Assembly: GCA_004299845.1 (NCBI GenBank)
Contig: CP036201.1
Coordinates: 2,356,001-2,420,000, forward strand
Length of the DNA: 64,000 nt
From: Verrucomicrobia bacterium S94
GTDB taxonomy: Bacteria; Verrucomicrobiota; Kiritimatiellia; Kiritimatiellales; Pontiellaceae
Direction: 5' to 3'
The stretch's first letter is position 1. Every line of letters starts with the position of its first letter. Below the pieces are notes generated by a model. That model had not been told where the DNA came from. It ran no database searches and worked only from the letters and a program-made list of their open reading frames with translations. Shown piece by piece: positions 7,435-10,656 of this stretch. Both the position numbers and the translations under genes were made by a program.

Positions 7435-8199
7435 ATGAAAAAGGCATTTCCTCTCATCGGATGCGCTGTATTGCTGCTTGCCGGCTGTAGCGTTAAAGTT
7501 GCGTCATCACTCGAAAAAACCCTCAACGAAGCCGTCATAGATCACCGCGGCGATGCAGTGGACAGCGATTACGTACTCAATACGGACTTTCTGTTGCTCT
7601 ACTTTTCCGGTCACTGGTGCGGCCCCTGTCGCAGCTTCACGCCCGAACTGGTGAAATATTATAATGACAAACAGGGCGGTCACCTTTTTCAGGTGCTGTT
7701 CGTCAGTTCCGACCACTCCGACTCGGAAATGAATCATTACATGGAATCTGCCGAAATGCCCTGGCCGGCCGTGATCTATCATTCCGAAGCCCGAAAAATA
7801 CTCAAACGCCAATACGCCGGCTCCGGCATCCCGCAGCTCGTCCTGCTCGATAAAAACGGCCACATCCTTGCCGACAGCTTTAAAGGCAAAAAATATCTCG
7901 GCCCCCGCCACGTACTCAACGTACTCGATGAGCGGCTCGAAAAACGCCTCAAAAAACGCGAAGTCGATCCCGTCGGCCTTTCCGAAATCACCGGAAAAGA
8001 TCTCCCCACCCCGAACCGGCTTGCCAGGAAATATCGCGTCGACGGCTTTGGAAAAAGCAAAAATGAAAATGTGGCCTTTATCAACGGCGATATTGTCATG
8101 GCCGGGCAGGAACTTGAGGATGGCGTTGTTGTTGAAGCCATTACCGACAGCTATGTAGAGATTTCATACGAAAAGAATAGATATAAGCTTTTCCCGTAA
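7435..8199 (+). CDS. Thioredoxin-like lipoprotein with a C-terminal SH3/GspB-like module
   Basis: 254 residues. A lipoprotein signal ends at LLAGC (Cys18). A thioredoxin-like domain of the nucleoredoxin/tryparedoxin type follows (about 25-150), with the redox motif WCGPC at 61-65 and a GIPQLVLLD segment holding the cis-proline. After a Lys/Glu-rich linker comes a 60-residue C-terminal module (about 195-254: RLARKYRVDGFG, AFINGDIVMAGQEL, YKLFP) that resembles the C-terminal module of the next gene. It is probably an envelope-anchored thiol reductase or oxidase; the partner is unknown. It sits 7 bp before the next gene in an apparent operon. Confidence 0.8.
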   Translation: MKKAFPLIGCAVLLLAGCSVKVASSLEKTLNEAVIDHRGDAVDSDYVLNTDFLLLYFSGHWCGPCRSFTPELVKYYNDKQGGHLFQVLFVSSDHSDSEMNHYMESAEMPWPAVIYHSEARKILKRQYAGSGIPQLVLLDKNGHILADSFKGKKYLGPRHVLNVLDERLEKRLKKREVDPVGLSEITGKDLPTPNRLARKYRVDGFGKSKNENVAFINGDIVMAGQELEDGVVVEAITDSYVEISYEKNRYKLFP

Positions 8200-8206
8200 T
8201 GAAAAT

Positions 8207-8707
8207 ATGAGTATTTCTTTCTGCATGTCAGATCGAATACTATTAATCATTATGGCTGTGTGCCTGCTTATCGGCGGGTACAAGCTCGTTTCCAGATCCC
8301 CCAGCGAAACCAAAGAGACCGCCCCCAAGACGGCTTCTCCTGCAGTTGATTCCGCTAAAACCGACTCCGGAAGCGCCACGCCGCAGCCCCACATCGCACC
8401 GCCCCCTCCCCTTGAGAAGGCATCCTCCGTCATAACTCCGGCACCGGCCGTCAACATCCCGAAACCGGCCACCGGAAAAAACGCCGCACCCGAAACCCCA
8501 CCGAAAATAAGCACAAAAGAACTTCGCAAACGCTATCATGTCGAAGGCATAGCACAAGGCAGTTCCGGGACCATGGTCATGATTAATCAGACCCCTCTGA
8601 AAGAAGGGGACACCCTTGGCGAACTCAAAATTGAGAAAATCGGACAAAACCACATCGACGTCATCTTTCAGGGGCAAAGCTATCATCTACGCGCCGAAGT
8701 ATTCTGA
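8207..8707 (+). CDS. Membrane-anchored protein with a GspB-like C-terminal domain
   Basis: 166 residues: one N-terminal membrane segment (about 9-25), a Pro/Ala/Thr-rich stretch (30-100) and a compact C-terminal domain (105-166) with LRKRYHVEGIAQGSS, MVMINQTPLKEGDTLGELK and HIDVIFQGQSYHL. The INxxPLxEGDxL...I pattern matches the periplasmic domain of type II secretion accessory protein GspB/PilP-like proteins. No secretion genes are nearby. The start at 8207 lies 7 bp after the previous stop; a second ATG at 8225 would also keep the membrane segment. Function is unknown, but the shared module suggests it acts with its neighbour. Confidence 0.65.
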   Translation: MSISFCMSDRILLIIMAVCLLIGGYKLVSRSPSETKETAPKTASPAVDSAKTDSGSATPQPHIAPPPPLEKASSVITPAPAVNIPKPATGKNAAPETPPKISTKELRKRYHVEGIAQGSSGTMVMINQTPLKEGDTLGELKIEKIGQNHIDVIFQGQSYHLRAEVF

Positions 8708-10110: not shown

Positions 10111-10656
10111 ATGGACCATCTGACACCAGAACATCGCTCATGGAACATGAGCCGGATCAGGGGAAGAGGCACCAAACCTGAACGGCAGGTCCGCTCCTTG
10201 CTGCATCAGGCCGGCTACCGGTTTACAGTAAACGGACCAAAAAACAGAAAACTGCCCGGAAAACCAGATATTGTTCTCCCGAAATATAAAACGGTCATTT
10301 TCGTCCATGGCTGCTTCTGGCACCGCCACGGCTGCAGAAAATCCACCATGCCGAAAACCCGCACCGCCTGGTGGCAGGCCAAATTCAACCGGAACGTTTC
10401 CAATGATCGGAAAAATCAGGCCCGGCTTACCGAACTAGGCTGGAATGTAATCGTTATCTGGGAATGCGAACTGAAAGAAGCCGAAGCAGTCAGCATCCAG
10501 CTGCTGGCCGAACTTTCCAGAGCCGCCACCCAAGCCATCCGCTACCCGACTGCCGAAGAGGAAAAATTATGGAAAGCGGCGGAACCCCCGGCTGCATATT
10601 CCGCACCGACCTCCGAACAGCATCAGAGTGCCCGACCCACCAAACCGCACCACTAA
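10111..10656 (+). CDS. vsr: Very-short-patch-repair endonuclease (Vsr)
   Basis: Vsr nicks 5' of T in T:G mismatches left by deamination of 5-methylcytosine. The 181-residue protein has the N-terminal SRIRGRGTKPE motif, KPDIVLPKYKTVIFVHGCFWHRH with the catalytic Asp and zinc-binding His/Cys residues, then RTAWWQAKFNRNV and ELGWNVIVIWECEL. The last 40 residues exceed the usual family length of 135-155 and are Ala/Pro-rich. A cytosine methyltransferase normally sits beside vsr; none is found in this window, so it is an orphan here. Confidence 0.93.
   Translation: MDHLTPEHRSWNMSRIRGRGTKPERQVRSLLHQAGYRFTVNGPKNRKLPGKPDIVLPKYKTVIFVHGCFWHRHGCRKSTMPKTRTAWWQAKFNRNVSNDRKNQARLTELGWNVIVIWECELKEAEAVSIQLLAELSRAATQAIRYPTAEEEKLWKAAEPPAAYSAPTSEQHQSARPTKPHH

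Follow-up and report, generated by a model that had tools for sequence, protein, structure and literature searches.

A C-terminal module of predicted HR type shared by a thioredoxin lipoprotein and a GspB-like membrane protein in Verrucomicrobia bacterium S94

In type II secretion systems (T2SS) and type IV pili, HR ("homology region") domains act as clamps between the inner-membrane components and the secretin. The HR domains of OutB, GspC and PilP bind the N0 domain of the secretin, GspB doing so through its β1 edge (PMC9239104), and OutB is covalently linked to peptidoglycan (PMC12274547). We found no description of an HR domain joined to a redox enzyme in the literature searched, nor any papers on secretion in Kiritimatiellota or Pontiella.

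Here, we describe two adjacent genes from a 64,000-nucleotide stretch of the genome of Verrucomicrobia bacterium S94 (contig CP036201.1, positions 2,356,001 to 2,420,000; hereafter the window, to which coordinates refer unless otherwise stated). The original prediction, made by eye, held that the last ≈60 residues of the two encoded proteins were a common module, attached to a redox domain in one and to a membrane anchor in the other, and that the redox protein would dock onto the anchor as part of a coupled envelope system.

The gene pair and its closest described relatives

The two open reading frames (ORFs) lie on the same (+) strand at 7435–8199 and 8207–8707, with a gap of 7 bp between them. 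The first encodes a 254-residue protein, best called a thioredoxin-HR lipoprotein, which has a lipobox (LLLAGC; L-A-G-C at 7477–7488) ending in Cys18, a C-G-P-C redox motif at residues 62–65 (7618–7629) and an HR-type C-terminal module at residues 193–254 (8011–8196) that was delineated with cross-HMMs and an AF2 model. When the protein was aligned with ten relatives (11 rows including the window copy), Cys18 and both cysteines of the redox motif were invariant; one row (G003) had no clear lipobox, several relatives had CPPC in place of CGPC, and the module was present in nine of the ten. The second ORF encodes a protein of 166 residues, best called a GspB-like HR protein, in which a single predicted N-terminal transmembrane (TM) helix (residues 7–28; 8225–8290) is followed by a Pro/Ala-rich linker and an HR module at residues 103–164 (8513–8698), as delimited by VIA-align against solved HR domains. 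The TM segment was assigned by eye from its hydrophobicity and corresponds to an AF2 helix over the same residues (mean pLDDT ≈89 over residues 11–20). An alternative start is possible at 8225 (MSDRIL). The module thus sits on a thioredoxin lipoprotein in one case and on an N-terminal membrane anchor in the other, as had been predicted.

The AF2 model of the lipoprotein consists of a thioredoxin domain (residues ≈24–172), a linker and the C-terminal module. Its Pfam Thioredoxin_8 match scored 69.9 bits (cut-off 27), and in a fold search residues 24–172 matched 4fyu (Z 18), tryparedoxins (Z ≈15–16) and ResA-like proteins. The protein shares its thioredoxin fold and CGPC site with the Thioredoxin_8 and tryparedoxin-ResA-TlpA oxidoreductases, but differs from them in its C-terminal HR module; other sampled relatives in the phylum end before it.

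The GspB-like HR protein resembles the T2SS scaffolding protein GspB/OutB (PF16537, 4WFW) in having an N-terminal TM segment, a Pro/Ala-rich stalk and a C-terminal HR domain, but it lacks the MSLI(Q/E)(D/E)AL N-terminus, has neither gspA nor a secretin gene beside it, and is paired with a thioredoxin gene instead. It scored 26.8 bits in a protein scan and 28.5 bits in a genome search against T2SSB (cut-off 28.4), and the TM copies in relatives scored 28–34 bits; against the NCBIfam GspB equivalog it reached 16.7 bits, compared to a cut-off of 100. We have not filed it as GspB despite its GspB layout, because it falls below the NCBIfam cut-off and has a different gene context. The type IV pilus lipoprotein PilP, which also carries an HR domain, is similar in layout to HR lipoproteins found in relatives (G013, G022 and G003). 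The window pair, in contrast, lies outside a pilMNOPQ operon, its likeness to PilP is limited to the domain, and the window lipoprotein has a whole thioredoxin domain between the lipid anchor and the HR module. GspC provided the best structural match for the module of the GspB-like protein (3OSS, below), which has no PDZ domain or other GspC parts.

Homology and predicted fold of the module

Blastp of one protein against the other gave a match confined to the C-termini (residues 196–252 against 106–161; 21% identity, E 6e-4). The Smith-Waterman score of the C-terminal pair was 57, which was reached by none of 20,000 shuffles (best shuffle 55), and the best other C-terminus among the window ORFs scored 38. 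Both modules matched T2SSB (PF16537), the thioredoxin copy with 20.8 bits, and both matched CdsD_C more weakly. The blastp and T2SSB matches, the shuffles and the lower scores of the other window C-termini show that the alignment made by eye was correct. A profile search had been proposed as a check on the shared module, and this gave significant matches in both directions (E 1e-9 to 1e-19): among 4,800 ORFs, an HMM of the thioredoxin C-modules alone found the separate module proteins with E 9e-15 to 2e-9, and an HMM of the separate modules alone found the thioredoxins with E 3e-19 to 3e-14. The hhalign probability between the two module families was 98.9. We conclude that the two C-termini are homologous over ≈62 residues.

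A chance or convergent likeness of two short β-rich tails was considered. The two window modules are only 21% identical and their Pfam matches both fell under the cut-off in the protein scan, as such a likeness would allow, but it is contradicted by the cross-HMM matches, by the shuffles and the other window C-termini, by an identical order of predicted elements in the two modules and by a tree that supports their common origin. This explanation was ruled out as exceedingly improbable. Both modules are under purifying selection, with dN/dS ≈0.07 each relative to the nearest relative, G027 (dN 0.096 and dS 1.36 for the thioredoxin copy; dN 0.062 and dS 0.83 for its neighbour).

AF2 predicted residues 103–164 of the GspB-like protein as one helix and six strands with pLDDT ≈90. 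The top 12 rows of a Foldseek search with this model were HR domains, and when the Foldseek candidates were compared by VIA-align, the ten best PDB entries were all HR domains, with Z scores of 6.3–8.9. The best of these was the GspC HR domain 3oss_C (Z 8.9; 1.8 Å over 59 residues), and others included a chain of a type IVa pilus model, GspB (4wfw, Z 7.3), PilP entries (Z 7.1), PulC and LspC. Z scores of 6–9 are modest, yet unrelated folds scored 5 or lower. A profile search of solved structures placed the HR domains of GspB (E 0.10) and GspC (E 0.35) near or at the top, a result that is weak alone. The C-terminal module of the thioredoxin protein was modeled with pLDDT ≈80–93 and has a helix and strands as in its neighbour, so that structural prediction of the two C-termini, also proposed as a check, gave the same helix and β-strand order. 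When the complete model of the thioredoxin protein was used in a fold search, thioredoxins only and no HR match were listed; since the thioredoxin domain filled the match list, this search was uninformative on the C-terminus. The HR identity of the thioredoxin copy thus rests on homology to its neighbour and on the same predicted order of elements, rather than on a fold match of its own.

Judging from sequence and predicted structure, the shared module is an HR domain, the β-sandwich of GspC, PilP and GspB, and its assignment to the GspB/HR kind agrees with the T2SSB matches and with the predicted structure of the GspB-like protein. An ING..G core is common to these HR modules and to T2SS GspBs. 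The thioredoxin modules have not retained the conserved R144–E155 pair of OutB, which is also incomplete in the true GspBs of the phylum.

Gene order, distribution and origin

The neighbours of the pair in the window are rplU-rpmA-obg, a tRNA-Ala gene and a DUF1080-like gene (protein names by eye). The locus was found to contain neither a secretin gene nor gspA nor any further secretion gene. Elsewhere in the window, a putative threonine synthase gene at 324–1855 (−) is divided between two reading frames around position 1310, by a frameshift or a sequence error, and an ORF at 10111–10656 (+) resembles, by eye, a very-short-patch repair (Vsr) endonuclease.

In those relatives that were examined, the locus lies divergently to rplU-rpmA-obg, and five arrangements occur across the family. 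The thioredoxin-HR gene is followed by the TM-HR gene in the window and in G027, G001, G009 and G025; an HR lipoprotein gene precedes the thioredoxin-HR gene in G013 and G022; and an HR lipoprotein gene precedes a thioredoxin without HR in G003 (in G018, the contig ends within the thioredoxin). The thioredoxin-HR gene stands alone at the locus in G017, G005 and G028, and an HR lipoprotein gene has no adjoining thioredoxin in G006, G007, G014 and G002, where some contigs are short. The HR gene found beside rplU in G008 (L079, 3122–3743) is apparently broken, with a stop codon inside the module match. The existence of both split and fused forms supports the view that thioredoxin and HR module are functionally linked. 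The two genes need not occur as a pair, since there are fusions without an HR neighbour and HR lipoproteins without a thioredoxin at the locus. The proposal of a coupled system is upheld in part: gene order, a probable duplication and the split form in a relative speak for it, while the pair is incomplete in several relatives.

Thioredoxins with the C-terminal module were found in ten genomes, all of the same family, when the organism's own genome and its relatives (58 genomes) were searched; named records among the matches are Pontiella sulfatireligans and the Pontiellaceae bacteria B12219, B1224 and B12227. A search of 193 genomes of the class with the thioredoxin-module profile (E at most 1e-4) gave matches only in the window's family and, on GspB-like proteins where inspected, in the order's second family and a further one. 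In a thioredoxin search of 387 genomes of the phylum, matches outside the genus stopped before the module, apart from one in G237 with two internal stop codons. None of the T2SSB/HR carriers inspected outside the family had a thioredoxin motif, and most were GspB-like, with a TM segment or no other recognised domain. Thioredoxin-HR fusions outside the family were found only in one Lentisphaeria MAG (CSMAG_279), which has two, at loci other than rplU: L107 3001–3969 (Thioredoxin_8 81.6 bits; T2SSB 31.0 bits, which exceeds the cut-off) and L094 2645–3418, a Thioredoxin_8 protein with a weaker HR/T2SSB-like C-terminus. The same HR-type C-terminus also occurs on a multi-TM protein encoded away from rplU in G005 (L068 7738–8427), where it adjoins YeeE-like membrane genes, and in G014 (L187 1042–1713).

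A tree of 38 HR modules placed the thioredoxin-HR and TM-HR modules in one clade (96/87) and the GspBs of secretion loci in the phylum in a separate one (98/92); with only 66 columns, the deeper forks are weakly fixed. AU tests in which the thioredoxin-HR modules were placed with the lipoprotein HRs or with the Lentisphaeria HRs gave p values of 0.19–0.28, and the test of one versus several origins of the fusion gave p 0.19. Because the two modules form sister groups, apart from the T2SS GspBs of the phylum, the sequences suggest that they probably arose by duplication within the locus, with one copy added onto the thioredoxin.

A possible common partner of the two HR proteins

The genome encodes five secretins, one of which has a GspD-type N0 domain over the cut-off. 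A pilus/T2SS-type cluster at L061 4283–15973 (4.066–4.078 Mb) contains genes for GspE, GspF, PilM/N/O-like proteins, a secretin and an RDPFWP-motif (RDPF-type) protein, as well as its own GspB-like gene on the opposite strand. The secretin of this operon has no cysteine (by eye) and so offers no direct thiol substrate. The genome also has a DsbA-family protein and one DsbD composed of N-terminal, TM and thioredoxin domains; VKOR was sought and not found. The DsbD gene, the only one found, lies ≈7 kb before the window (L231 7143–8750).

The known binding of HR domains to N0, the five secretins, the N0 domain and DsbD lead us to infer a common ring, probably a secretin, bound by both HR proteins. 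The paralogous modules, one at the C-terminus of a lipid-anchored thioredoxin and the other at the tip of an inner-membrane-anchored stalk, would pair through edge strands with one and the same periplasmic partner, most likely a secretin N0 ring or something similar. By analogy with GspB/OutB, the stalk protein would tether the ring to the inner membrane and the thioredoxin would be held at the mouth of the channel; there its CGPC site, with DsbD as reductant, might keep thiols of the cargo or apparatus reduced, or reshuffle them. We favour this as the best explanation, if tentatively and at somewhat less than even chances. It is consistent with the cross-HMM homology, the HR fold of the GspB-like protein, the clade that unites the two modules, the rplU-rpmA-obg synteny, the purifying selection and the Lentisphaeria fusions. 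Against it, the locus has no secretion genes, the pilus/T2SS operon has its own GspB-like and RDPF-type proteins and a cysteine-free secretin, the R144–E155 pair is not kept, the pair is incomplete in several relatives, and the thioredoxin module itself was not recovered as HR by fold search. The more specific proposal, that a thioredoxin positioned by its HR domain at the periplasmic opening of a secretin channel, beside a paralogous HR stalk, constitutes a dedicated redox checkpoint of Pontiella-type bacteria and possibly, independently, of Lentisphaeria, is rather doubtful.

The original prediction had the two HR modules bind each other, with the thioredoxin docking directly on the membrane-anchored protein. 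The modules are paralogous and their genes adjacent on the same strand, the fusion followed by the TM protein is kept in five genomes, and hetero-oligomers are common among paralogous domains of a single operon. But HR domains are known to bind the N0 domain of secretins rather than another HR domain (PMC9239104), no HR–HR complex is among the HR interactions considered, and G017, G005 and G028 have the fusion with no HR partner at the locus. Direct docking is thus unlikely, and a third, secretin-like partner common to both proteins is more likely. It is also possible, at odds well short of even, that the HR domain was co-opted as a general-purpose periplasmic spacer or adaptor unconnected to secretins, making the pair a lineage-specific envelope thiol reductase and its accessory protein. 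The position beside ribosomal-protein genes and away from secretion genes, the HR modules on the unrelated multi-TM protein and the HR lipoproteins with no thioredoxin at the locus would fit such a role; the low dN/dS of the modules points to conservation beyond the needs of a spacer, and the HR fold and the ING..G core of T2SS GspBs have been retained.

HR modules have thus spread beyond secretion operons. The combination of thioredoxin and HR domain is unusual, and may indicate that a redox enzyme is kept at a defined position in the cell envelope. Should the module have retained its hold on a secretin, thiol chemistry would take place at the gate of an outer-membrane channel.
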